Shown in pieces: positions 2,010 to 19,577 of a DNA stretch of 31,431 nt. The notes beneath the pieces are model-generated. The model was not told where the DNA came from, did no database searches, and saw only the letters and a program-made list of their open reading frames with translations. The translations under genes and the position numbers were made by a program. Position 1 is the first letter of the stretch; every line of letters starts with the position of its first letter. Location: positions 1 to 31,431 of the IMG/VR virus record IMGVR_UViG_3300028045_000055; one strand, written 5' to 3'. The DNA comes from a virus.

Positions 2010-3008
2010 CTACATAATAGGGATTGATACTTCTTCACCTTTAACTCTATGTGGTAATTCCACATGGAGTATACCATTTTCCATATCTGCACTTAATTTT
2101 GATTCATCAACCAGTCGCTGAAACGGGTATTTAAACTCGAATTTACCGACTAAAAATGGTGGGACAGTATTATGTTCAGTTAATACAGGGTCCTTTCTTC
2201 CACGGCCCTTTATTTTTTTGCGTAATTCAACTACACTACCTTTACGCTCACCACCGATAACTAATGTACCAGCATTAAAGTGAACCTTAAGCGATTCCTT
2301 ACTAACTCCAGATAAATCAACAAATACATGATATGAACCTTCAATCATTGCAATCTCACTCGGTGGTAAGTATTGCCCTGCTGCTTGATTCACTGGTACT
2401 TGTTGTTGCTGTGGTGGATAGCCATTAGGAACTACATTATAAGGTTGTTCCTGATACTGAGGTGCAGGTTGTTGATATGGCTGCTGTGGTGCTACTGGTG
2501 CTTGCTCATACCCTGCTGGTGCCTGTGCTGGCGCTTGTTGTTGATACCCAGCCGGTGGTTGTTGCTGTGGTGGGCGCTGCTGCTGCTGTCCTTGTGGTGA
2601 TGGACGTTGCTGCTGTCCCTGTGGAGGGCGTTGATGTCCCTGTGGAGGACGTTGTGGTTTCTTACCACCCACTTTACCTAATCCCGGTATATTGATACCA
2701 TCTGGCACCTTTTCTTGCATATCGGTCATATCACTCGCACTTACGATTCGAGTTTTTCCAGTTTTTTGGTCAATCATTTCAATCTGATTAGTGTTGATAT
2801 TATCGGCTTGTTCTATTTTACTTGGCATTTTTTTGTTCCTTGGATAAGGCGTAGGAGAGTCATGAACATAAAATATTTCATCGAAGAGTTTTTCTTCTGT
2901 AGGTAATTTATTTTTTCTGACCTCAATACAATCATATTTTTCGTCAATCAGTCCAATTGGACTGTGATGCTTCGGTTGAGAGAAAAGTTTTTTAAAGAAG
3001 TTGAGCAT
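2010..3008 (-). CDS. Small heat-shock protein (Hsp20/alpha-crystallin) with long Pro/Gln-rich insert
   Basis: The C-terminal ~110 residues (about 222-332) form an alpha-crystallin domain. GSYHVFVDLSGVSKESLKV, LVIGGERK, GKFEFKYPFQ and MENGILHVELPHR are the expected strands and the G-x-L-like motif. The C-terminus ends VSIPIM, containing the I-x-I motif (IPI) used in sHSP oligomerisation. Before it lies a region of about 95 residues (117-212) made almost only of Pro, Gln, Gly, Ala and Tyr, unusual for an sHSP (typically 140-180 aa; this is 332). Hsp20 proteins occur in several T4-like phages and probably act as holdases during assembly. The ATG at 3008 has only a weak ribosome site. The gene follows the sigma-factor gene by 10 bases. 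Confidence 0.88.
   Translation of the reverse strand: MLNFFKKLFSQPKHHSPIGLIDEKYDCIEVRKNKLPTEEKLFDEIFYVHDSPTPYPRNKKMPSKIEQADNINTNQIEMIDQKTGKTRIVSASDMTDMQEKVPDGINIPGLGKVGGKKPQRPPQGHQRPPQGQQQRPSPQGQQQQRPPQQQPPAGYQQQAPAQAPAGYEQAPVAPQQPYQQPAPQYQEQPYNVVPNGYPPQQQQVPVNQAAGQYLPPSEIAMIEGSYHVFVDLSGVSKESLKVHFNAGTLVIGGERKGSVVELRKKIKGRGRKDPVLTEHNTVPPFLVGKFEFKYPFQRLVDESKLSADMENGILHVELPHRVKGEEVSIPIM
2373..2660 (-). repeat. Low-complexity Pro/Gln-coding tract inside the sHSP gene
   Basis: Imperfect short repeats encode RPPQGQQQ-like and PAGYQQQAP-like units. It also opens spurious Leu/Val-rich frames on the opposite strand, which are not genes. Confidence 0.85.
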
Positions 3009-3018
3009 CCATCATACT

Positions 3019-3852
3019 TCACTGTATGTCATCCAAAACATAACGAAATTCTTTCATGTCTCGATGTTTAGCAAGCTTTTTTAATGCACGGTCACGTAAC
3101 TGACGTACACGTTCATGAGACTTTCCTATTAATTCTTTTGTTTCACGTAGAGTTATCTGTTCATGTCCACATAAACCAAATAAGCGAGTGATGACTTTAT
3201 ATTCATCTGTACTTAATACAGTTTCGAGTATATCAGCAGTTACATTGGATATATTACGAAGTAAGCAAATCTTTTCGGCATCCTCAGCAGTATCATCCTC
3301 TACTAAATCACCTAACATCGTATCACCATCACCTATAGGTGTATCAAGTGAACTATGAGATTGAGCAATTCTATGTAGGTATTGAATGTCATCACCAAAG
3401 TCTTCTGGGTCCATCTCTTTACGAGCTCTATTTAGTTTTACCCTTTGATGTGCAGGTAATCTAATTAGGTCACGCTCTTCAAGATATTTACTAATTCGAC
3501 ATCTTATTTGCCAAACCGCAAATGAAATAAATTTATTTCCCTTACGCCAATCAAATAAATCAACCGCATTTAGAAGTCCTATCTTACCTTCAGTCATTAC
3601 TTCGTTCACATCCACCGACATCTTTGCCTTATATTGCAATGCAATCTTAAGGACAAATCGAAGATTCGCTTGAACTAGCTTTGTTTTTATTTTCTGTCGA
3701 GTTCGTATAGATGCGGTTTCATACTCTTTAAAAAGTAACTGCTCTTCATCTCTACTGATTACTACGGTTTTAGAAACTTCATGTAACATAAGTTTGGTTA
3801 CATAATCTTCTTCACCTAGTCCTGATTGAACAGGTGTATTTCTTGAAGTCAT
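3019..3852 (-). CDS. Phage sigma-70-family RNA polymerase sigma factor
   Basis: The 277-residue protein has the complete architecture of a primary-type sigma factor. Region 2 (about 59-135) contains LVQANLRFVLKIA, EGKIGLLNAVDLFDWRKGNKF and the aromatic-rich FAVWQIR DNA-melting segment. SSLDTPIGDGDTMLGDLVED (about 157-176) matches the region 3.2 finger of RpoD-like factors. Region 4 (about 200-264) has the helix-turn-helix TLRETKELIGKSHERVRQLRDRALKKL. This is unlike the minimal T4 gp55. It should redirect host core polymerase to phage promoters, and the recurrent TATAAACTA motif is the obvious candidate target, though that link is inferred. GGAGG four bases before the ATG gives a strong ribosome site. 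Confidence 0.93.
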   Translation of the reverse strand: MTSRNTPVQSGLGEEDYVTKLMLHEVSKTVVISRDEEQLLFKEYETASIRTRQKIKTKLVQANLRFVLKIALQYKAKMSVDVNEVMTEGKIGLLNAVDLFDWRKGNKFISFAVWQIRCRISKYLEERDLIRLPAHQRVKLNRARKEMDPEDFGDDIQYLHRIAQSHSSLDTPIGDGDTMLGDLVEDDTAEDAEKICLLRNISNVTADILETVLSTDEYKVITRLFGLCGHEQITLRETKELIGKSHERVRQLRDRALKKLAKHRDMKEFRYVLDDIQ

Positions 3853-3966: not shown

Positions 3967-4518
3967 ATGAATATTATTATAGCAGGAATACAGGGCTCAG
4001 GAAAAGGGACCCATGGAAAAAAATTAGCTAAACTATTAAAAATACCTCATATTTCGTTCGGTGATGCTATACATAAACATTTACTTGATGAAACTGGCAT
4101 TGCTGACCCATATACAATAGCAGACTATAATGCAGGTACATTAGCTCCCGATTCAGCTTTATTTAAAGTTGCTGAATTTGAACTTAAGCCATCAAGAGTT
4201 AAAAAAGGATTTTTATTAGATGGATTCCCACGAACTCCCGGACAGCATCAATATGTAGCTAATAACTTTTTAGTTGATGTATGTATAGTATTAGACATCC
4301 CAGATGAAGTATCAGTGGGAAGATTAATGAAGCGTGGTCGAATAGATGATACTGAATCCGGAATTACAAAGAGACTAGAGCAATTCAAATCAGTTACAGA
4401 GCCTATCTTCTCATATTATGAGAAACGTGATATGTTAATTAGAGTCAATACTAATCAACCTATACAGGACTCATATGCAGAAATTATAAGAAAACTTGAA
4501 CCTTTTTTAAAAAAGTGA
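3967..4518 (+). CDS. adk: Adenylate kinase
   Basis: Nucleoside monophosphate kinase of 183 residues (ATP + AMP to 2 ADP), probably supporting the nucleotide pool during infection. Seen directly: P-loop GIQGSGKGT (residues 7-15), AMP-site motif LLDGFPRT (83-90), and the short-LID signature RGRIDDTESGITKRL (123-137). The frame extends upstream to a TTG at 3943, but the ATG at 3967 is chosen because GAGGAG (3955-3960) lies 6 bases before it. The length fits short-LID adenylate kinases rather than the long bacterial type (~214 aa). The stop codon directly abuts the -35 box of the tRNA-operon promoter. Confidence 0.92.
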   Translation: MNIIIAGIQGSGKGTHGKKLAKLLKIPHISFGDAIHKHLLDETGIADPYTIADYNAGTLAPDSALFKVAEFELKPSRVKKGFLLDGFPRTPGQHQYVANNFLVDVCIVLDIPDEVSVGRLMKRGRIDDTESGITKRLEQFKSVTEPIFSYYEKRDMLIRVNTNQPIQDSYAEIIRKLEPFLKK

Positions 4519-4546
4519 TTGACTTCTCGCTCAGATTGTCTATATT
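4519..4546 (+). promoter_or_regulatory. Sigma70-like promoter of the tRNA operon leader
   Basis: TTGACT (4519-4524), 16 bases, then TATATT (4541-4546). The same architecture recurs at 8240-8267 and 10177-10204. It should start transcription near 4553, about 45 bases before the leader ORF. Confidence 0.85.
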
Positions 4547-4596: not shown

Positions 4597-4686
4597 ATGA
4601 AAAACTTATCTTTACATTCGCTCAGTTGCTTATGTCTGTCGTGGTCACACGAGAGGGGTTTTTCATTTGGTATAGAAGGTTGTTAA
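4597..4686 (+). CDS. Leader peptide of the tRNA operon (29 aa, Leu/Ser/His/Cys/Trp run)
   Basis: This short ORF lies between the operon promoter and an intrinsic terminator. Codons 4-18 read LSLHSLSCLCLSWSH, fifteen successive residues drawn only from Leu, Ser, His, Cys and Trp. These are the same five amino acids, and no others, carried by the tRNAs downstream. Synonymous codons are varied: Leu TTA/CTC/CTG, Ser TCT/TCG/AGT/TCA, both His, both Cys and the Trp codon are all sampled, as if to test many isoacceptors. GGA about 7 bases before the ATG is a modest ribosome site. The stop (4684-4686) lies so that a terminating ribosome would cover the antiterminator arm at 4671-4681. By analogy with trp/his/leu leader peptides, translation itself, not the peptide, is the likely function. 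Confidence 0.85.
   Translation: MKNLSLHSLSCLCLSWSHERGFSFGIEGC
4636..4655 (+). promoter_or_regulatory. Candidate pause hairpin within the leader ORF
   Basis: TCGTG (4639-4643), loop GTCA, CACGA (4648-4652), extended by CT/AG around a G-G mismatch, followed by GGGGTTTTT. It sits over the Trp-Ser-His codons and could hold polymerase until a ribosome arrives, as the 1:2 hairpin does in the trp leader. Confidence 0.5.
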
Positions 4687-4730
4687 TAATATAATTACAA
4701 TCTTACAAAACTGAAGAGGAACCTTTTATA
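4671..4730 (+). promoter_or_regulatory. Antiterminator of the tRNA-operon attenuator
   Basis: UAUAGAAGGUU (4671-4681) can pair over 11 positions (ten Watson-Crick, one G-U) with AACCUUUUAUA (4720-4730). The latter is the inner part of the 5' arm, the loop and the first base of the 3' arm of the terminator at 4714-4741. The two folds are mutually exclusive. The upstream strand begins 21 bases after the last codon of the Leu/Ser/His/Cys/Trp run and ends just before the leader stop codon. Stalled ribosomes would therefore leave it free, while a ribosome at the stop would mask it. Confidence 0.78.
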
Positions 4731-4746
4731 AGGTTCCTCTTTTTTT
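4714..4746 (+). terminator. Intrinsic terminator (attenuator) before the tRNA cluster
   Basis: A perfect 12-bp stem (4714-4725 with 4730-4741), loop TTAT, then a T-run to 4746. It lies between the promoter/leader ORF and the first tRNA, so it would block tRNA transcription unless prevented. Confidence 0.92.
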
Positions 4747-4822: not shown

Positions 4823-4905
4823 GGAGAGTACCACTCAATGGTGGGTAAGTAGCCTTGAAAGCTATGGACTGGTAAAACAGTGGGGTTCGAGTCCTCTACT
4901 CTCCT
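4823..4905 (+). tRNA. tRNA-Ser (UGA)
   Basis: Acceptor GGAGAGT pairs with ACTCTCC (4898-4904). Anticodon stem GTAGC/GCTAT holds loop CTTGAAA with anticodon TGA. The long variable arm is typical of Ser. The T-loop is TTCGAGT, with a T-T mismatch at the base of the T-stem. CCA is not encoded; the next bases are CTA. The discriminator is T rather than the usual G. Confidence 0.88.
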
Positions 4906-4936
4906 CTATGAATTTGATTATGAATGTGCAGTTATC

Positions 4937-5023
4937 AGTTACTTCGCGCAATTGGTTGACGCAATCTGCCTTAAAAACAGACTCCTTTAAAAGGGATTAC
5001 AGGTTCAAATCCTGTAGTATCAA
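4937..5023 (+). tRNA. tRNA-Leu (UAA), imperfect acceptor stem
   Basis: The D-arm (GCGC, loop with TTGG, CGC), anticodon loop CTTAAAA (TAA), a class II variable arm and the T-arm ACAGG-TTCAAAT-CCTGT are clear. The acceptor strands AGTTACT and AGTATCA pair at only five of seven positions (A-A at 1-72, T-T at 3-70), and the anticodon stem has a C-A at its top. It may be decayed or need an unusual fold. The 5' end is uncertain by a few bases. A second Leu(UAA) gene lies at 5528. Confidence 0.6.
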
Positions 5024-5064
5024 TCTGATGACGATTTTTCTTCATACTCAAATTCAAACTTTAT

Positions 5065-5149
5065 GCCGAGATGGTGAAATTGGTAAGACACGCTGGCCTT
5101 AGAAGTCAGTGCTTTAAATAGCGTGAGGGTTCGACTCCCTCTCTCGGTA
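5065..5149 (+). tRNA. tRNA-Leu (UAG)
   Basis: Acceptor GCCGAGA/TCTCGGT with a G1-U72 wobble, a feature also found in bacterial tRNA-Leu. Anticodon stem CTGGC/GTCAG with loop CTTAGAA (TAG), a long variable arm, T-loop TTCGACT and discriminator A. CTA follows instead of CCA. Confidence 0.93.
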
Positions 5150-5153
5150 CTAT

Positions 5154-5237
5154 GCAGTTGTGGTGGAATTGGTATACACACTGGCCTAAGAAGTCAGCGA
5201 GCGCAAGCTCTTGAGAGTTCAAATCTCTCCAACTGTA
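5154..5237 (+). tRNA. tRNA-Leu (AAG)
   Basis: Acceptor GCAGTTG/CAACTGT (G1-U72), D-loop AATTGGTA, anticodon stem CTGGC/GTCAG with loop CTAAGAA giving anticodon AAG, a long variable arm, T-loop TTCAAAT and discriminator A. A34 in a Leu tRNA is unusual in bacteria, which normally use GAG for CTT/CTC. Its sequence is close to the Leu(UAG) gene just upstream, suggesting duplication. Confidence 0.9.
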
Positions 5238-5247
5238 CTAAAAATAT

Positions 5248-5332
5248 GTCGAAGTGGTGGAATCTTGGTATACACAGCGGTTTCAAACGCCGTGTCCTAA
5301 TGGACGTGAGGGTTCGATTCCCTCCTTCGATA
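5248..5332 (+). tRNA. tRNA-Leu (CAA)
   Basis: Acceptor GTCGAAG/CTTCGAT (G1-U72). Anticodon stem GCGGT/GCCGT with loop TTCAAAC (CAA, reads TTG). Long variable arm, T-arm GAGGG-TTCGATT-CCCTC, discriminator A, followed by CTA. Confidence 0.92.
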
Positions 5333-5346
5333 CTAACAAAACACAT

Positions 5347-5420
5347 GGTGATTGTAGCTTAATTGGTAAAGCCCCAGACTGTGACTCTGGTCATTGCGAG
5401 TTCGATTCTCGTCATTCACC
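5347..5420 (+). tRNA. tRNA-His (GUG)
   Basis: A G at 5347 fits the special G-1 of tRNA-His, opposite discriminator C73 (5420). Acceptor GTGATTG/CATTCAC has one T-T mismatch. D-arm GCTT/AAGC with TTGG. Anticodon stem CCAGA/TCTGG, loop CTGTGAC (GTG). T-loop TTCGATT. CTA follows. Confidence 0.9.
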
Positions 5421-5426
5421 CTATAA

Positions 5427-5510
5427 GGAAGGTTCCCATAATTGGTATTGGAGTGCCCTGCTAAGGCATCGCCGCGAAAGCGGTTACGGGTTCGAATCCC
5501 GTACCTTCCG
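5427..5510 (+). tRNA. tRNA-Ser (GCU)
   Basis: Acceptor GGAAGGT/ACCTTCC, anticodon stem GTGCC/GGCAT with loop CTGCTAA (GCT, reads AGC/AGT). The variable arm is a GC-rich hairpin (CCGC GAAA GCGG). T-arm ACGGG-TTCGAAT-CCCGT, discriminator G as expected for Ser. It starts only 6 bases after the tRNA-His gene. Confidence 0.95.
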
Positions 5511-5527
5511 TTAATTTTCAAAACTAT

Positions 5528-5609
5528 GCTACTGTGGTGGAATGTATACACATTTGCTTTAAGCGCAAACGCCGGTAACGGATTGGGGGTTCGAGTCCCC
5601 CCAGTAGTA
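5528..5609 (+). tRNA. tRNA-Leu (UAA), shortened D-loop
   Basis: Acceptor GCTACTG/CAGTAGT (G1-U72), anticodon stem TTTGC/GCAAA, loop TTTAAGC (TAA), long variable arm, T-arm GGGGG-TTCGAGT-CCCCC, discriminator A then CTA. Compared with Leu(AAG) and Leu(CAA) the D-loop has lost two bases, leaving one G where the G18-G19 pair should contact the T-loop. Confidence 0.85.
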
Positions 5610-5680
5610 CTAAAAATAGCATATTTGGTATTAATTGAAATACATAAACATCAATAGAAATATGTGTATTTCACCTTTTA

Positions 5681-5690
5681 TATAAACTAT
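5681..5690 (+). promoter_or_regulatory. Late-type promoter motif TATAAACTAT
   Basis: It lies 18 bases before the HNH endonuclease start, inside the tRNA cluster. No -35 box is visible. Confidence 0.6.
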
Positions 5691-5707
5691 ATGAAAGGAG
5701 ATTTATT

Positions 5708-6463
5708 ATGGATTGGTTTGATAAATATAACATAACAGAACTGGAATTTATAAATGTATGTAAATCCTCACGTAGCATGCGACATGCATGTACAGAGCTA
5801 GGTTTACATTTCAATACATTTAGACGACAAGCTATTAAAATAGGGTGTTATGATACAAACCAGTCAGGTAAAGGGGTATCAAAATATAGACCAAATACAA
5901 TTAAATTGGATGATGTGTTGAATGGACAATATCCACATTACAAGACTGGCAATTTAAAAAGACAGTTGATGAAGTATGGACTAAAATCAAATCAATGTGA
6001 GTTATGTAAAATCACTGAATGGAATGGAAATAGTATTGTAATGGAGTTAGACCATATTGACGGTAATAGATTTAACCATTCATTGGATAATTTAAAGATG
6101 CTCTGCCCAAATTGCCATTCACAGACACCTACGTTTAGAGGTAGGAATATAAAAAGTGTTAATGGAGTCAGAGAATTACCAAAGGCCCCTACTAAACCAC
6201 GTAAGCCTAAACGAGCTCCACGTCAATGCATTGATTGTAATAATGAGATTACTTACAAGGGGAAAACCGGAAAATGTACAAGTTGTGTACAGAAATCAGA
6301 AACTAAACCCTCAGTAGAGCAATTAAGTATTGATTTAAAAAGTTTACCGATGACTAAAATCGGAGAAAAATATGGAGTATCAGATAATGCAGTCCGTAAA
6401 TGGCTGCGAAGTTATGAACTCCCGGTAAAATATTCAGATATTCAGAGATGGAAATCCGAGTGA
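5708..6463 (+). CDS. HNH homing endonuclease (free-standing, in tRNA cluster)
   Basis: The 251-residue protein begins with a helix-turn-helix-like segment (SSRSMRHACTELGLHFNTFRR, about 20-40). It carries a zinc-bound HNH nuclease: CELC (Cys97, Cys100), ELDHIDGN (Asp115-His116), the Asn/His segment around 123-128, and CPNCH (Cys133, Cys136, His137). A second zinc-ribbon-like pair follows (CIDCN and CTSC), then a C-terminal helix-turn-helix (IGEKYGVSDNAVRKWLRSY). This is the modular pattern of phage homing endonucleases with DNA-binding tails. AAAGGAG precedes the ATG. It separates the Leu/Ser-rich tRNAs from Cys, His and Trp and probably invaded the cluster. The target site is unknown. Confidence 0.92.
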   Translation: MDWFDKYNITELEFINVCKSSRSMRHACTELGLHFNTFRRQAIKIGCYDTNQSGKGVSKYRPNTIKLDDVLNGQYPHYKTGNLKRQLMKYGLKSNQCELCKITEWNGNSIVMELDHIDGNRFNHSLDNLKMLCPNCHSQTPTFRGRNIKSVNGVRELPKAPTKPRKPKRAPRQCIDCNNEITYKGKTGKCTSCVQKSETKPSVEQLSIDLKSLPMTKIGEKYGVSDNAVRKWLRSYELPVKYSDIQRWKSE

Positions 6464-6470
6464 TAAACAT

Positions 6471-6545
6471 GCACTAGTAGTCAAGTCTGGTCTAAGACAG
6501 AAGATTGCAACCCTTCCATCGTCGGTTCGAATCCGGCCTAGTGCT
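6471..6545 (+). tRNA. tRNA-Cys (GCA)
   Basis: Acceptor GCACTAG/CTAGTGC and discriminator U73, the identity element of tRNA-Cys. Anticodon stem GAAGA/CCTTC (one A-C mismatch next to the loop), loop TTGCAAC (GCA), T-loop TTCGAAT. It begins 7 bases after the endonuclease stop. No CCA. Confidence 0.9.
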
Positions 6546-6555
6546 TATTTTTATA

Positions 6556-6627
6556 CCCAGCGTAGTGTAATTGGTAACACCTCAGCTTGTGATGCTGAAA
6601 TTTCCGGTTCGAGCCCGGACCTGAGGA
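6556..6627 (+). tRNA. tRNA-His-like (GUG), degenerate acceptor stem
   Basis: D-arm (GTG, loop with TTGG, CAC), anticodon arm TCAGC-TTGTGAT-GCTGA (GTG) and T-arm TCCGG-TTCGAGC-CCGGA are good. The acceptor strands CCCAGCG and CCTGAGG pair at few positions, and G-1/C73 are missing. The 3' strand CTGAGG is complementary to CCTCAG of the anticodon stem instead. It may be a pseudogene, a mimic, or a tRNA with an uncommon fold. An intact tRNA-His lies at 5347. Confidence 0.5.
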
Positions 6628-6647
6628 TTTATTTTAAAGGAGTTATT

Positions 6648-6791
6648 ATGAATGAACAAAAGAAAATGTCCAAAAGTGATGCGCCTAATATGCCAATGGT
6701 AATAACCGATGGTATGCGAATTAGTTCACTGGAATCCCAAGTTAAGTATTGGGAACTTAGATATGAACTTACATTAAAATATTGTAAATAA
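6648..6791 (+). CDS. Small hypothetical protein (47 aa) between tRNA genes
   Basis: This ORF starts with ATG at 6648 behind a strong AAAGGAG (6637-6643). It encodes a hydrophilic peptide beginning MNEQKKMSKSDAPNM, with a likely C-terminal helix (SSLESQVKYWELRYELTL). It is too short for most gene finders. The ribosome site and coding-like composition support it. The stop at 6789-6791 is 5 bases before tRNA-Trp. No family recognised. Confidence 0.65.
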   Translation: MNEQKKMSKSDAPNMPMVITDGMRISSLESQVKYWELRYELTLKYCK

Positions 6792-6796
6792 AATTT

Positions 6797-6866
6797 AGGG
6801 TGTCGTATAGGCGTACTAAGCAGTCTCCAAAACTGTGACTTAAGGGTTCGACTCCCTTACATCCTG
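6797..6866 (+). tRNA. tRNA-Trp (CCA)
   Basis: Acceptor AGGGTGT/ACATCCT (one G-U), anticodon stem GCAGT/ACTGT, loop CTCCAAA (CCA), T-arm AAGGG-TTCGACT-CCCTT, discriminator G as in bacterial tRNA-Trp. CTA follows. It is the last tRNA seen; no terminator is evident after it. Confidence 0.92.
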
Positions 6867-6964
6867 CTATTTCGTAACATGGATTTAACTTTCACATATC
6901 TCCTCCATTAATACATACCTCACTTATTTAACTCACTATATGAACTTAATTTATTTAGATTAGT

Positions 6965-14157: not shown

Positions 14158-14367
14158 TTAGCAGGGTGATTGAAAGCGAGAAGTTGAGCAATCAGTACAT
14201 GGAGTTGTATCCCCATCGTCATTTACCCAACCACCTACATTACATCCTTTATACGCACCGCCGCTTACTTCCCATACCCGACCACCTAAGTTACCACCAA
14301 GTAATTGCGTTGGAATCGTTTCGTGTGATGAATGGAGCGTATTTTGATTTATTTTATTAGTTGTCAT
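14158..14367 (-). CDS. Small Gly/Cys-rich protein (69 aa), possibly leaderless
   Basis: Residues 22-69 are rich in Gly and contain four Cys (GGAYKGCNVGGWVNDDGDT, then PCTDCSTS and a final PC), suggesting a small disulfide- or metal-stabilised fold. The only in-frame ATG lies 5 bases downstream of a minus-strand TATAAACTA motif and has no ribosome site. If that motif is a promoter, the mRNA would start at or near the ATG. Function unknown. The ORF is supported mainly by the promoter motif, the terminator at its end and the non-random composition. Confidence 0.55.
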   Translation of the reverse strand: MTTNKINQNTLHSSHETIPTQLLGGNLGGRVWEVSGGAYKGCNVGGWVNDDGDTTPCTDCSTSRFQSPC

Positions 14368-14372
14368 AGTTC

Positions 14373-14386
14373 TAGTTTATAAACTA
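14373..14386. promoter_or_regulatory. Palindromic, bidirectional late-type promoter
   Basis: TAGTTTATAAACTA is a perfect 14-bp palindrome holding one TATAAACTA on each strand. It sits between the diverging genes at 14367 and 14415. Confidence 0.65.
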
Positions 14387-14414
14387 TGATAGCACACTAA
14401 AAGAAAGTACGAAT

Positions 14415-15059
14415 ATGAATTATGATTTTAAGAACACAGGTGATATAAGTTTACCGAAACGTACCAGAAAACGTCAGTCGCCTTTACTTCCACTAGTAGA
14501 GGCTATGAGTGCTACAGGAGAAACTATGGATATTAAATCCAAGAGAGACTATACATATAAGTACAGTTGTGCATTATTGCCCCTGAGTGATAGCGTGGGC
14601 CCTATTCTTAAATACTGGGCACGTAAAATGATTCCAGAGGAAGTATTATATGTGAATCAAGATGAGGGGATTGACGGATATGAGTTCAATCCACATGTAA
14701 CCATTAAATATGGCCTCCATGATGCTAACCCCGATAATTTAAACGAACTATGTAATGGATGTGGACCCATAAATATAGAGTTTGGTAAAGTTGATAAATT
14801 CGATACGAATCCAAATTTCGATGTAATTAAAGTAAATATCGAAAGTGGTCAACTTAGAATACTGAATGAAAAAATTTCAGCAGGATTGTCTCATGATGAA
14901 AAATGGGATTCCTACAAACCGCACGCAACTTTAGCTTATGTTAAAAAAGGCGCATGTGAAGACTTAGTTAAGAGTGGATTTTTCACTAAACTAAATGATG
15001 TTATAGACCAAGTTTGCTTTAGTTCTAAAACAGGAACTGAGCATTATATTAACTTATAA
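14415..15059 (+). CDS. 2H phosphoesterase (LigT / Acb1-like)
   Basis: Two histidine motifs spaced as in the 2H phosphoesterase superfamily are present: NPHVTIKYG (His94, Thr96) and YKPHATLAY (His170, Thr172). The core between about 45 and 205 reads as alternating helices and strands of the two-lobed fold. About 40 basic residues precede it (SLPKRTRKRQ). The family includes 2'-5' RNA ligase-type enzymes, cyclic phosphodiesterases acting on tRNA-splicing products, and phage Acb1, which degrades cyclic nucleotides to defeat CBASS defence. Which role applies cannot be told from sequence alone. The late-type promoter argues for action late in infection or inside the virion. The next gene follows by 9 bases. 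Confidence 0.82.
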   Translation: MNYDFKNTGDISLPKRTRKRQSPLLPLVEAMSATGETMDIKSKRDYTYKYSCALLPLSDSVGPILKYWARKMIPEEVLYVNQDEGIDGYEFNPHVTIKYGLHDANPDNLNELCNGCGPINIEFGKVDKFDTNPNFDVIKVNIESGQLRILNEKISAGLSHDEKWDSYKPHATLAYVKKGACEDLVKSGFFTKLNDVIDQVCFSSKTGTEHYINL

Positions 15060-15068
15060 GAGGGAACA

Positions 15069-15695
15069 ATGGACGGACCACTTTTAGATAGATGGGTAGG
15101 TAGGTTACACCAAGGCACCGCAAGATGTATCATAAGTGATTTACCCGTTTCATACGCAGAAGAAGATGCACCATCATCGGAAACAATAAATGCAAATATA
15201 ACGTCATTTGTTGGACCCGGATTACAGTTGCGTTACCAAATAGATGGTAGCTATAAAGGACTGGTACATATCCCTGTAACTGAAGATAACCAGTATTACG
15301 ATAAACTCATTACGATGAACATGATAGTAGATGACAGACAAGAGAACTATTGGACTCTTCACCGTTATATGTCTACAATTCAAAGTGGTATGACTGGACC
15401 TAATGCAAATCCCCAAAAAGATTATAATCATAGAATCTACGGAGCTGATAAACATTATAGGAACCGAAGAATGTGGATACCATTTATTGAAATCCATATG
15501 GCAGATGATTCGTACCAAGAATGGCAGATAATTCGATACGAAAGATGCTGGCCTACGGATATCAGTGATTTGAGTTTGAATTTTCTAGCACCTGAGCCAG
15601 TTAATTTTAACATGAGTTGGACATATGAAGTTAAGAAAATCATTCGATGCCCTAAACCAATTGCAGATGTTCCACCGAAATGTATAACAAACTAA
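15069..15695 (+). CDS. Tail-tube-fold protein (gp19-like)
   Basis: The C-terminal part (about 135-195) reads IPFIEIHMADDSYQEWQIIR, then CWPTDISDLSLNF, then FNMSWTYEVKKI. This strand order matches the end of T4 gp19-type tail tube proteins, where a W-P-x-x-I segment precedes the last strands. With 208 residues it is longer than T4 gp19 (163). It might be the tube protein itself or one of the related baseplate/tube-initiator proteins. AGAGGGAA precedes the ATG. It is followed by another protein of similar fold. Confidence 0.65.
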   Translation: MDGPLLDRWVGRLHQGTARCIISDLPVSYAEEDAPSSETINANITSFVGPGLQLRYQIDGSYKGLVHIPVTEDNQYYDKLITMNMIVDDRQENYWTLHRYMSTIQSGMTGPNANPQKDYNHRIYGADKHYRNRRMWIPFIEIHMADDSYQEWQIIRYERCWPTDISDLSLNFLAPEPVNFNMSWTYEVKKIIRCPKPIADVPPKCITN

Positions 15696-15707
15696 AGGAT
15701 ATTAATA

Positions 15708-16754
15708 ATGGGAGCACCTAAATTACCCACAGTCTACAATCAAAGTATGACACAACGCATAGATGAGTTCTATGGTAATTCGAGTATATTCAAAAACAAT
15801 ATGTTCTACGTTGGGTTATGGGGTGAATATGTTGACGATGCACTTAATGTTATGGCAGAGTCGACTAAGAGAGACCCATTCCTTAACCAATCTAGAAGTG
15901 GCCAAACTAAGGGCGCTGATGTTTTTGATACTGCATTTAAAAGATGGAAATCGGTTCATGTCGACGATGATACACATGAAGTTGAATTGAAATGGACATG
16001 TAGCCAGATTACAATACCTACAGTGGAGTCTCAATTCGAAACTAAAGACTATTCAATTGATACAATCAAACCTATTCAGTATCCACTATTGACTGGATAT
16101 GGCGGTGCTAAGAATGTTGACATAACTATTGTTGAGGACCGTAACATGATGTTATGGCATTTCTTCAATACACTCCATAACCAATTCTACAATGCACAGG
16201 AACTAATACCTAAAAGTTCATTCCATAAAGTAGGGATGTATTGTGCGGTAATGCAATCTGATGTATTAACTAATGCACCAGACTCTATCAAGGATGGACT
16301 GGAATGGTCGATTGATGAATTTGGTGTTGATAGACTTATAACTGATGTACCTGCAATGGTATATGAGTTTAACTCAGTATTGATTACTGAAGTGGGTAAG
16401 ATTCAACTATCACAGGACCAACCGGATAAGTTTACATTTACGGTACAAATCCAAGTACCTAATACATTCCAAGGCACCTTTAAAACTCAGTTCAGAGGAT
16501 TAGCTAATAATAGCAGTCAAGGTGGATATGTACCAACGTCCGGTGTAGATGCCAGTGCTATTAAGAATGGAAGTTATAATAAAGCATTCTTCGAAGAAGG
16601 TGGACTGCCGATAGATAGAGGTGGTAAAGGTGGCGGTGGTGGTCAGAGTACTGATAGAAAGGGGAATGTCAGTAAGATTAATGGTAACCAATCAACATTA
16701 AATACTAATTTACCAAATAATACAGTGGCTAAGGCTACTAAAAACCTTAATTAA
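15708..16754 (+). CDS. Tail tube/baseplate tube-related protein with Gly-rich tail
   Basis: The core (about 85-265) shows tube-like segments: KWTCSQITIPTVESQFETKD, YPLLTGYGGAKNVDITIVED, RNMMLWHFFNTLHNQF, then SVLITEVGKIQLSQDQPDKF and FTVQIQVPN. This matches gp19/gp54-type proteins, in which an IP-x-V strand, an R/D-rich ITxxED strand and a helix follow each other. The C-terminal ~80 residues are Gly/Ser/Asn-rich and probably flexible. AAAGGATA precedes the ATG. The gene end overlaps the converging glycosyltransferase by 8 bases. Confidence 0.62.
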   Translation: MGAPKLPTVYNQSMTQRIDEFYGNSSIFKNNMFYVGLWGEYVDDALNVMAESTKRDPFLNQSRSGQTKGADVFDTAFKRWKSVHVDDDTHEVELKWTCSQITIPTVESQFETKDYSIDTIKPIQYPLLTGYGGAKNVDITIVEDRNMMLWHFFNTLHNQFYNAQELIPKSSFHKVGMYCAVMQSDVLTNAPDSIKDGLEWSIDEFGVDRLITDVPAMVYEFNSVLITEVGKIQLSQDQPDKFTFTVQIQVPNTFQGTFKTQFRGLANNSSQGGYVPTSGVDASAIKNGSYNKAFFEEGGLPIDRGGKGGGGGQSTDRKGNVSKINGNQSTLNTNLPNNTVAKATKNLN

Positions 16755-17610
16755 AGAACTCGATATCAAGAGGGTGGAGCTTAGTCTTCACCCTCAGTCG
16801 TTTTACTTGTTCCTGAAAATAATCTTTATGGTTGATAGTATATTTATCTTTTGGTCTAGGGTGGTCAATATGCTGAACACCGCATTTAACTTCACCTACT
16901 GTAGTGATAAATGCCCTAACATACCAAGATTGAATACCAAGGAATCCATCCTCACCGCCCCACTCACCTAAAAACTCGCTACTGAATACTTCCTCACGTG
17001 AGTAGTATTTATTATTGAATTTCTTAAGTAACTTAACAAGGGTTAAATTCAATCCTATGTTACAACTCCATACAATAACACAACTAGTAATGAGTTCTGG
17101 ATTGTTAATGAGCATACCTTCAGTGCGAAATATATCAAGATGAGTAAACTCTGGTGATATTTCACGCTGGTCTTTCCATCTAAACTTTTGTTCTCGTCTA
17201 CGACCTATACTCAATACAGGTAAATCAGCTGATAATTTATTTGAGTGTGATATGAATAAACCAGATTGCGGAATGCAGTCACCGTCAATGAATATGAATT
17301 GCTCAAATCCCTCAGCTATAGCTCGGTCAAGTCCATAATTTCTAATATACCCCACATAAAATGGGTCACCACTAGATTTACGATTCACTAAGTAATGCGG
17401 TGGGACTGGGCACCGAATAACTTCTATATTGATTTCACTGGAATCCGAAAGCTGTTTAACTAATTCATATTCTTCATCAGTAGCTCTATCCATCAAAGCA
17501 TACACTTTTCCCGGAGTACTGGGATTAGATTCAATCCCTTTTAGAATAAGTTCCCAGTGTTTTGCTTGCTTGTAGATAGGAACAAGTAAGGCCAGTTTTT
17601 CAATAGTCAT
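16747..17610 (-). CDS. GT-A type glycosyltransferase (GT2/GT7-like)
   Basis: The 287-residue protein has the N-terminal Rossmann strand LALLVPIYKQ (6-15), YIRNYGLDRA (88-97), the metal/nucleotide-sugar site FIDGDCIP with DGD at 109-111, and the acceptor-side motif WGGEDGFLGI (217-226) as in the GT7 C-terminal domain. It is expected to transfer a sugar from a nucleotide donor. Last gene of the long minus-strand operon, directly after a UDP-galactopyranose-mutase-like gene, suggesting a joint pathway such as decoration of virion proteins or DNA with a galactofuranose-type sugar. That link is inference. Confidence 0.85.
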   Translation of the reverse strand: MTIEKLALLVPIYKQAKHWELILKGIESNPSTPGKVYALMDRATDEEYELVKQLSDSSEINIEVIRCPVPPHYLVNRKSSGDPFYVGYIRNYGLDRAIAEGFEQFIFIDGDCIPQSGLFISHSNKLSADLPVLSIGRRREQKFRWKDQREISPEFTHLDIFRTEGMLINNPELITSCVIVWSCNIGLNLTLVKLLKKFNNKYYSREEVFSSEFLGEWGGEDGFLGIQSWYVRAFITTVGEVKCGVQHIDHPRPKDKYTINHKDYFQEQVKRLRVKTKLHPLDIEFFN

Positions 17611-17618
17611 ATTACTCT

Positions 17619-18653
17619 TTACATGATAACGGTTTGAGTCATTGGCTTTAACGTCAATATCTTACCGGAATGGAGTTTAACAAGTTTTTTATATTCACTG
17701 TACATTTTCTTATTAGCTGACGTATGACATATTTGGGAGATAGTCCCTGTATTCATATTATCTATAAGTTCGGTGGTAATCTTGGTAATATTCCCACGGT
17801 CATTAGATATACACCAATAGTCTTTAGTTGGTGTAAATATTACACCTGAACTAACATCAATAAATTCTTCTAAATTTTGTTCATTACTTTCTTCAACATG
17901 CCACTTCACTCTATCGAAAGCACCATATAAGTAACCGAATATTTCGTCAACCCTATTATCCATTAAGATAACATCAATTCCCATAAATCGCTTAGAAAGG
18001 AATTTACGTATTGATGAGAGTTTAATAGAACTTATCGTAATATTTTCATGGTCAAGGGCATTATTACAGAGGTCCTTATATCCATTAGTTGGAGTATAAA
18101 CAACTCCAGTTGATTTATCATCTAAACATGATAGATTGATTTCTCTGGCTAGTCCCTCTTCACTAAACTTACTTTGACGAAACCCACCCCATTTACTAAT
18201 AGCGACATGCTTGATAATAGTATCATACAACCACTTAGGGAAGAAGTTCTTATAAATGTTAATGTAGTTGGTTGCCTTATCCAGTTTTTCTCGGAATTCA
18301 CCGATACCTGAAATACATGCTTCCATTTGTTCCCACTCTTCAGCGGAATCAATGGATGAGCGATTTATTGGCCAACTCATTAAACCATTTTGGTTATTTA
18401 CAAACTTTACTTGTTCATAGGGTATGAATGCGTAAGTTGAGTTCACCAACTTTCTAAACGGCACATTAATATGCATCGATTTAACACGCAGCATATCTTC
18501 ATATGATATGTAGTCTCTAATTTCATCGAGCGGATACCCTAATTTACCAGTTTGTAGGAAGGTTACTTTCTTCCCTTTACTGGCGAGTTCTCTTGCGAGT
18601 AGTACCGCATCTAAACTGTAACCTATTATATAGGTAGATTCTTTTTCAAACAT
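17619..18653 (-). CDS. UDP-galactopyranose mutase-like flavoprotein
   Basis: The N-terminus (STYIIGYSLDAVLLARELAS, KKVTFLQT) looks like the FAD-binding Rossmann strand-loop-helix, though its Gly motif is degenerate. The middle part (WLYDTIIKHVAISKWGGFRQ, REINLSCLDDKSTGVVYTPT, NGYKDLCNNAL) resembles the substrate-binding segment of Glf enzymes, which convert UDP-galactopyranose to UDP-galactofuranose. With 344 residues it is close to the usual ~370. Activity is uncertain given the altered FAD motif. It lies 8 bases upstream of the glycosyltransferase in the same operon. Confidence 0.6.
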   Translation of the reverse strand: MFEKESTYIIGYSLDAVLLARELASKGKKVTFLQTGKLGYPLDEIRDYISYEDMLRVKSMHINVPFRKLVNSTYAFIPYEQVKFVNNQNGLMSWPINRSSIDSAEEWEQMEACISGIGEFREKLDKATNYINIYKNFFPKWLYDTIIKHVAISKWGGFRQSKFSEEGLAREINLSCLDDKSTGVVYTPTNGYKDLCNNALDHENITISSIKLSSIRKFLSKRFMGIDVILMDNRVDEIFGYLYGAFDRVKWHVEESNEQNLEEFIDVSSGVIFTPTKDYWCISNDRGNITKITTELIDNMNTGTISQICHTSANKKMYSEYKKLVKLHSGKILTLKPMTQTVIM

Positions 18654-18663
18654 ATTAGTCGCT

Positions 18664-19077
18664 TTATTCTCTTATGACATCTAAGATATATTTTTCGAGC
18701 CATGATGGTGGTGGGAACCCGGAAACTATATCAATTACGCGTCCTTTAGAGTCGGCGAAGATGTGCATTGGTGATTTTGTGAAACCCATCTCTATATAAA
18801 GTAAATTATTATCAGGGTCATCCTCAACTACCCATTTAACATTATAGATAGGGTCATTGAAAAAGTTATACTTCTCGAACCATTGATTCATAGAAGCAAA
18901 CTTCATTGTACAATCTTCACACAGGTCTTCATCACGATAGAAAGTGAATATCCACATTTTAGTTTGATTAAATTTTTCTAGAACCGGTCCTTTATATGTA
19001 TCCCTTCCAAAAGCAAGTAACCTTTTATCAAGGGGTGAATATTCTGTACTCATTCCAGTTTTACCACAACATGTCAT
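18664..19077 (-). CDS. Thioredoxin-like protein
   Basis: The 137-residue protein shows WIFTFYRDEDLCEDCTMKF with a redox C-x-x-C (Cys53, Cys56) after a hydrophobic strand, and TKSPMHIFADSKGRVIDIVS with the cis-Pro (Pro103) typical of the thioredoxin fold. A second Cys pair lies at the N-terminus (MTCCGKTG). It could keep tail proteins reduced or help disulfide formation during assembly. Its ATG overlaps the stop of the gp4-like gene by one base, so it is co-translated with a head gene. Confidence 0.78.
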   Translation of the reverse strand: MTCCGKTGMSTEYSPLDKRLLAFGRDTYKGPVLEKFNQTKMWIFTFYRDEDLCEDCTMKFASMNQWFEKYNFFNDPIYNVKWVVEDDPDNNLLYIEMGFTKSPMHIFADSKGRVIDIVSGFPPPSWLEKYILDVIRE

Positions 19078-19577
19078 TAGAATAGTCCTTTCGTATTCTC
19101 TTCATTTAATATACGCCATGTGACACCATGTTTACTGCACCAATTTTGAGCTGCCTGCCATTTAGCCATATTAATGACATATTCATGCTTGTTTATTTCA
19201 TATCGCTTCAAAGATTTTTGATACTTAGTAAGTGATTTAGCATCTCTATTAGTGGGTCGCTTAGGCTGAACTGGATATTTACAGAATCGAGCCGGTTTAA
19301 TTTCAACCAACAACTTCTGTACTACATTATTTTCATTCACTACTTGACAATAGATATCGGGGTAATATACAGTCCATTTCATATAACGGGGATGGTAGTA
19401 GTATATTTCGATACATTCATATCCCCACTTCTGTACATATGTATTGATATCTAGCGCGAGGAATACTTTTTGTTCCCAGCTACTTTTATAAATAGTAGCA
19501 TTGTTGCCTATGTATTTCTCAGGATTTTGTACCTTATATTTTCCTTTTTTAGTATCTTTTTTATAATTAAAGCCCAT
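19077..19577 (-). CDS. Head completion protein, T4 gp4-like nuclease fold
   Basis: The 166-residue protein carries the features of T4 gp4 (head completion; gp50/65 group): KGKYKVQNPEKYIGN near the N-terminus, YKSSWEQKVFLALD, YHPRYMKWTVYYPDIYC with the catalytic-type Asp, KLLVEIKPAR with Glu-x-Lys, and the C-terminal KWQAAQNWCSKHGVTWRILN. D...ExK is the restriction-endonuclease-like core. In T4 it acts after packaging to stabilise the filled head before tail joining. Basic residues are abundant. Confidence 0.87.
   Translation of the reverse strand: MGFNYKKDTKKGKYKVQNPEKYIGNNATIYKSSWEQKVFLALDINTYVQKWGYECIEIYYYHPRYMKWTVYYPDIYCQVVNENNVVQKLLVEIKPARFCKYPVQPKRPTNRDAKSLTKYQKSLKRYEINKHEYVINMAKWQAAQNWCSKHGVTWRILNEENTKGLF

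Follow-up and report, generated by a model that had tools for sequence, protein, structure and literature searches.

Why should a phage carry a cluster of tRNA genes that serves only five amino acids? This question is raised by positions 1-31,431 of IMG/VR virus record IMGVR_UViG_3300028045_000055, a linear record of 31,431 bases (36.7% G+C, standard code) that is referred to here as the window. At 4823-6867 it holds 11 tRNA genes, of which five are for Leu (UAA twice, UAG, AAG and CAA), two for Ser, two for His, and one each for Cys and Trp. An earlier note on this DNA had described this set from the sequence, and the ARAGORN and Rfam calls agree with it, ten of the genes being ARAGORN calls and one (the second His) an Rfam-only call. 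In other phage contigs, 28.6% of the tRNAs (402 in all) serve these five amino acids, and 11 out of 11 would then be expected at a probability of ~1e-6, which is a guide only, as it treats the genes as independent although they are not. Because of this value and of homologous clusters for the same amino acids in two relatives, the narrow set is not chance. The purpose of phage tRNA genes has been debated for more than 50 years, with codon bias set against the replacement of tRNAs lost in infection. The sequence upstream of the first tRNA suggests an answer for this locus, in that the cluster is very probably one operon of a phage-wide tRNA supply under ribosome-mediated transcription attenuation.

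Between the end of an adenylate-kinase-like gene (4518) and the first tRNA (4823), some 80-300 bases ahead of the latter, the window contains, in this order, a promoter, a leader open reading frame (ORF) and an intrinsic terminator, together with a control-codon run and a predicted antiterminator:

4519-4546, plus strand: sigma70-like promoter, TTGACT-N16-TATATT, read from the sequence; similar ones stand before the leaders of relatives
4597-4686, plus strand: leader peptide ORF of 29 codons, MKNLSLHSLSCLCLSWSHERGFSFGIEGC, closed by a stop codon, read from the sequence
4606-4650, plus strand: control-codon run, codons 4 to 18, 15 consecutive codons for Leu, Ser, His, Cys or Trp only
4656-4724, plus strand: predicted antiterminator, with an outer stem of 4656-4671 paired to 4710-4724 and a nested hairpin at about 4676-4703
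4713-4746, plus strand: strong intrinsic terminator, GAAGAGGAACCTTTTATAAGGTTCCTC followed by T7, between the leader ORF and the first tRNA

The core of the leader is LSLHSLSCLCLSWSH, and its amino acids are identical to the five of the downstream tRNAs. In addition, the control run spans both Leu boxes (UUR and CUN) and both Ser boxes (UCN and AGY), and the whole leader folds far better than its shuffles (z -6.5). Shine-Dalgarno-like sequences of weak to moderate strength are seen for the leader ORFs. In its sequence, the locus thus has every feature of a classical amino-acid attenuator. A T-box riboswitch or other Rfam leader was considered and rejected; at gathering scores the window matches only tRNA models.

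The same arrangement is found in relatives of the window, defined as contigs that share its terminase. Across 2.89 million six-frame codons of the loci compared at that point, runs of at least 15 Leu, Ser, His, Cys or Trp codons within ATG-started ORFs occur only twice, in the leaders of the window (15) and of relative L012 (17), each directly 5′ of its cluster; the leaders of L113 and L116 add runs of 15 each. Binomial p values for leader composition are 7e-7 for the window, 6e-10 for L012, 2e-5 for L113 and 9e-7 for L116. L012, with a terminase 57% identical, repeats the promoter, leader (MLLSSLHLSSLCSWLSSHAHPRYA), terminator and tRNAs of the window, and its tRNAs, all eight of those called falling within the five amino acids, run Leu, Leu, Ser, an HNH gene, Leu, Ser, Leu, Trp, Ser to the contig end. 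In L116, the leader MKSLSLHLSSLCSWLSSPEYPRYM is followed by 16 tRNAs, 15 of them for Leu, Ser, Trp, Cys or His and one unassigned, and in L113 the contig ends just past the leader MKKINEKQLHSLSSLCSSWLSLCRGFPYFLE. Promoter, ORF and terminator are kept at 71% identity in L012 and L116, and alignment places the adenylate-kinase-like gene 5′ of the leader in L012, L113 and L116 as well.

The relative G007 extends this pattern to a whole tRNA complement. This near-complete genome of 164,708 bases contains L116 and has 56 Rfam tRNA matches in five places. They form eight tRNA operons, and the short ORF that opens each one corresponds to the tRNAs behind it:

MNMKRIYKYYRFIKTTPKGSVMR, before Tyr, Met, Tyr, Phe, Phe
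MQMISKQNKQKKQPSEVVV, before three Lys
MKTNQQQQQQVMDSSARPPD, containing QQQQQQ, before three Gln
MEFNMTFTTLNNNNERECRSTETI, the Asn/Arg/Glu leader, containing NNNNERE, before three Asn and Arg(UCU)
MIIATVYEREEERMRY, before five Glu
MKQINTNIINSMDTVLVSSFAALPPKGV, before two Pro
MQVTTITTADTAAIIDRGTIAMGTGVHA, with core VTTITTADTAAIIDRGTIAMGTGV, before Ala, Gly, Met, Thr, Ile, Arg, Val, Asp
The Leu/Ser/His/Cys/Trp leader (L116 region), before the tRNAs for these five amino acids

The observed pairing of leaders with operons ranks 1 of 40,320 permutations, whether the tRNA sets are cut at the next leader or run to the cluster end. Between them the eight operons serve all 20 amino acids. Of the 18 amino acids that have at least two genes, 16 keep them within a single operon, where 20,000 shuffles never exceed 8. 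The two exceptions are Met and Arg, and for Arg the leaders fit their operons by codon: the Asn/Arg/Glu leader has AGA (plus one CGC past the core) and its operon Arg(UCU), and in the eight-amino-acid leader the codon is CGC, with Arg(ACG) and Arg(UCG) in the operon behind it. Where leaders stand in tandem they look nested: the first one of a cluster has residues that match later genes as well (K in the Tyr/Phe, E in the Asn/Arg leader). The earlier note had suggested that the narrow set replaces particular host tRNAs, a view that would fail if tRNAs of other identity were encoded elsewhere in larger number; in the relative G007 they are, with 41 of the 56 tRNAs, for the other 15 amino acids, lying outside the Leu/Ser/His/Cys/Trp operon under their own leaders. 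The narrowness of the cluster therefore reflects a partition into regulons.

Matched leaders appear to be particular to this lineage. A search with the leader DNA pattern returned L012 again and otherwise chance matches. The promoter pattern returned G007, L012 and L174, a 99.99% copy of the Tyr/Phe/Lys/Gln region, and the remaining contigs from that search were without such leaders. The same leader screen in ~90 other loci, many with large tRNA arrays, gave no matched leader outside the lineage (best p 4e-4, uncorrected), and the tRNA regions of T4, T5 and KVP40 showed no matching leader plus terminator. In the literature, a search that covered neither subscription journals nor most preprints returned no account of phage tRNA genes controlled by attenuation or by leader peptides.

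Our folding analysis predicts an antiterminator through which these leaders could switch. Nine leaders, from three phages of one lineage, were folded as transcripts truncated inside the terminator loop, with a ribosome footprint held open at each A-site codon. A terminator follows the ORF in 9 of 9, the window included. In all nine, the terminator 5′ arm pairs with upstream RNA while the ribosome is early, and the pairing is lost as the ribosome proceeds. This predicted antiterminator, in most cases a small hairpin enclosed by an outer stem, excludes the terminator, and in eight of the nine leaders, again including the window, it is lost at most three codons from the end of the control run. 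The run end and the codon of loss are 18 and 18 in the window, 26 and 26 in the eight-amino-acid leader, and 13 and 14 in the Lys leader. Taken singly the antiterminators are modest, with 5 (the window) to 91 of 300 dinucleotide shuffles of the intervening sequence as good; combined across leaders, the shuffle p is 1.4e-4.

What the sequence itself shows is a promoter and an ORF, a peptide composition that matches the tRNAs, a terminator, the potential for an antiterminator, conservation, and recurrence in the eight operons of G007. From them we infer that the leader ORF is translated, that the switch operates and that it has a trigger. Transcription would start at the host-type promoter, and a ribosome would translate a short leader peptide built of the amino acids whose tRNAs are encoded 3′. 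A shortage of charged tRNA for Leu, Ser, His, Cys or Trp would stall the ribosome within the control run; the RNA trailing the polymerase would then fold into the antiterminator, and the tRNA genes would be transcribed. With sufficient supply the ribosome would run on, no antiterminator would form, and the terminator hairpin would fold and end transcription before the tRNAs. The circuit would be self-limiting, because the new tRNAs would relieve the stall. As a leader peptide of the same five amino acids precedes it, the cluster appears to be a real functional unit, expressed at charged-tRNA shortage. On a larger scale, the phage probably carries a complete feedback-controlled tRNA network, in which the 20 amino acids are split among separately sensed operons, each released by its own charged-tRNA shortage. 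Such a phage would possibly measure and repair host translation capacity group by group, perhaps in answer to tRNA-cleaving immunity.

Several observations weigh against the attenuation model. The Gln leader is off the pattern, its antiterminator being the weak one that 91 of 300 shuffles equal, and with it the correlation between control-run end and antiterminator loss is 0.58, compared with 0.94 without it. Equilibrium folds favour the terminator once the leader is fully transcribed, so the switch would be kinetic and is modelled on truncated RNA only. The Pro leader, which is not among the nine folded, has two Pro codons only and no clear terminator, with p 0.31. The Lys leader has as many Gln as Lys residues, which continued transcription into the Gln operon could explain. 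In addition, the unit is dispensable, since L010, 83% identical, is without kinase, leader and cluster and retains the Trp-like tRNA alone. Finally, the window genome is incomplete, and any further operons lie outside the 31.4-kb fragment. The Tyr/Phe and Glu leaders are by themselves only nominally significant (p 0.015 and 0.017); the statistical strength of the leader match lies in the set and not in single leaders.

Such an attenuator may be triggered by a host defence that cleaves tRNAs, by decay of host tRNAs, by lack of amino acids or simply by demand. We regard it as a tentative possibility, somewhat short of an even chance, that tRNA-targeting host immunity is the specific trigger, with tRNA shortage read as attack and only the missing tRNAs released. 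Sensing by group would suit a selective response to nucleases of different specificity, and published defences cleave single tRNAs (PMC11555353, PMC12409363, PMC13096335). However, the same switch would be tripped if amino acids ran short, host tRNAs decayed or demand was high.

A simpler form of this idea, which takes up the replacement of lost host tRNAs put forward in the earlier note, is that the cluster constitutively replaces five host tRNA families destroyed by a host nuclease or by infection. The set is indeed narrow and conserved in relatives, and phage tRNAs counter tRNA-cleaving defences in other phages (PMC10264068, PMC11555353, PMC13096335). However, the near-complete G007 has tRNAs for all 20 amino acids, with a separate leader for each group, and constitutive expression is unlikely because a terminator stands before the first tRNA. 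We thus consider constitutive replacement improbable. What survives of the proposal is the idea that a shortage of these tRNAs is made good, as the matching leader predicts an operon that responds to shortage of these five charged tRNAs; what does not is the short list of lost tRNAs, given that the set is one regulon of several.

General codon compensation, in which an AT-rich phage supplies tRNAs for codons that its host reads poorly and the leaders are incidental, is more doubtful still. Five Leu tRNAs do suit the Leu codon use of the phage (UUA/CUU/CUA/UUG = 0.36/0.25/0.17/0.11). However, His, Cys and Trp are the three rarest residues of its proteins (1.7, 1.1 and 1.2%) and have little or no synonymous choice, so that codon demand fails to explain them, in keeping with the earlier note, which did not favour general codon bias; moreover, incidental leaders could not match eight operons. 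A last reading, in which the matching ORFs arose by chance or from low-complexity sequence and the hairpins are just ordinary terminators that serve upstream genes, is scarcely credible and is refuted at the level of sequence statistics: terminators and short ORFs are common as single features, and L098 holds a 15-residue run by chance (without a start codon), but the same kind of peptide is kept in four related phages, the leader-operon pairing has the top permutation rank and the promoter-ORF-terminator order recurs each time.

The genes placed under the predicted attenuator in the window are:

4823-4906, plus strand: tRNA-Ser(UGA), ARAGORN, under the Rfam gathering score
4937-5023, plus strand: tRNA-Leu(UAA), ARAGORN and Rfam
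5065-5150, plus strand: tRNA-Leu(UAG), ARAGORN and Rfam
5154-5238, plus strand: tRNA-Leu(AAG), ARAGORN and Rfam
5248-5333, plus strand: tRNA-Leu(CAA), ARAGORN and Rfam
5348-5421, plus strand: tRNA-His(GUG), ARAGORN and Rfam
5427-5510, plus strand: tRNA-Ser(GCU), ARAGORN and Rfam
5528-5610, plus strand: second copy of tRNA-Leu(UAA), ARAGORN and Rfam
5708-6463, plus strand: free-standing HNH (homing-type) endonuclease within the cluster, phrog_10822 (1.7e-34)
6471-6545, plus strand: tRNA-Cys(GCA), ARAGORN and Rfam
6556-6627, plus strand: second tRNA-His(GUG), Rfam only, 43.4 bits
6797-6867, plus strand: tRNA-Trp(CCA), weak but conserved, ARAGORN; Rfam 27.5 bits against a 29-bit cut-off

No further tRNA was found within the window, a linear fragment of the virus record. 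The Ser(UGA) and Trp genes, both sub-threshold in Rfam, have counterparts with paired arms in relatives. The Trp-like tRNA (about 8040-8110 in L010, where ARAGORN misses it, and 6797-6867 in the window) has stems with paired changes and G at position 33, where U is near-universal. No CCA is encoded at the tRNA 3′ ends of the window (4823-6867), L012 and L116; CTA follows many of them, and the tRNAs so followed carry the fitting discriminator base (A for Leu, C for His, U for Cys, G for Trp). The first Ser(UGA) has discriminator U in the window and in L012. A tRNA-Leu with anticodon AAG is present in the window (5154-5238) and in L116 (17931); this anticodon is unusual in bacteria and needs A34-to-inosine editing or would read mainly CUU. 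The Leu/Ser/His/Cys/Trp operon of L116 also has a long-arm tRNA-like gene at 18113-18195 with an eight-base anticodon loop (ARAGORN: ???, tata). A motif of about GCTGATTGNTAATNTGGTNTTG, perhaps a processing signal, recurs between a terminator or tRNA and the next tRNA (L012 18010-18060, L116 17400-17440, L150 2570-2600). The HNH family of the cluster lies directly beside tRNA-Leu(UAA) in many unrelated phage contigs (L020-L098), which suggests a homing target in or near that gene.

The window is probably a fragment, about a fifth, of a T4-supergroup phage without close cultured relative, based on a large-terminase part at 10-825 (~24-30% related to T4-supergroup terminases) and a T4 gp4-like head completion protein at 19077-19577 (~40% identical to cyanophage versions). 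There was no nucleotide match to the window in 50,697 phage records, no tblastn match of its 701-aa protein to cultured phages, and no relative of its terminase in a further set of genome contigs searched. Three leader peptides likewise gave no tblastn match, a weak negative because the queries are very short and low-complexity. An altered genetic code was considered and dropped; the main ORFs all read normally. Adjoining the tRNA operon upstream is the following gene:

3967-4518, plus strand: adenylate-kinase-like gene, Pfam ADK (2.9e-25), in a TTG-started ORF from 3943

Just 5′ of this kinase, positions 2010-3852 encode an Hsp20-domain protein and a sigma-70-family factor, both kept in relatives; a sigma-factor profile search returned no contigs beyond those already known. 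In L012, a long insert at 14280-17800, with what looks like radical-SAM and glycosyltransferase-like coding sequence, separates kinase and leader; it is not in the window.

If the attenuation model is true, these are the first known tRNA genes, viral or cellular, under cognate leader peptides. In this lineage, the phage's own regulation points to an answer to the long debate, as the genes appear to be coupled to a sensor that reads a lack of charged tRNA for each amino-acid group, and the question of why phages carry tRNAs becomes directly testable through the control codons. The leaders would also provide a natural set of multi-amino-acid attenuators, with tRNA as a new regulated gene class for a classical mechanism, and a basis for the design of sensors for individual aminoacyl-tRNAs.

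The phage leaders resemble the E. coli trp, his, leu and ilv attenuators in having a promoter, a leader ORF with control codons, an antiterminator opposed to a terminator, and regulated genes 3′, with ribosome progress as the deciding step. Those attenuators control biosynthetic enzymes, whereas the leaders described here precede tRNA genes, in a virus, and would sense up to eight amino acids, eight of them dividing the 20 in G007. As in attenuated or T-box-controlled aminoacyl-tRNA synthetase genes, the charging state of tRNA would control translation-supply genes; here, in contrast, the product is the tRNA itself, and the window has no T-box match. The clusters of T4, T5, KVP40 and other phages are likewise large sets of tRNA genes carried by lytic phages, interspersed in T5 and T4 with HNH or GIY-YIG endonuclease genes, but those examined have mixed identities and no matching leader plus terminator. 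The HNH gene of the window is comparable in position to SegB of T6, which lies beside tRNA and amplifies tRNA genes (PMC13096335). Published studies describe host defences that cut single tRNAs and phage tRNAs that counteract such defences (PMC10264068, PMC11555353, PMC12409363, PMC13096335). In these counter-defence systems (retron, PARIS and Septu, together with the VapC hypothesis for mycobacteriophages) phage tRNAs likewise make good infection losses, but through early expression, sequence escape or gene amplification, whereas here a shortage sensor would be built in; a tRNA operon released by shortage would suit such a conflict over tRNAs. The novelty thus lies in what is controlled (tRNA genes), in the fact that a virus carries the system, in sensors for several amino acids at once and in the way one genome divides all 20 amino acids among operons, and for the whole tRNA network we know of, and found, no counterpart.

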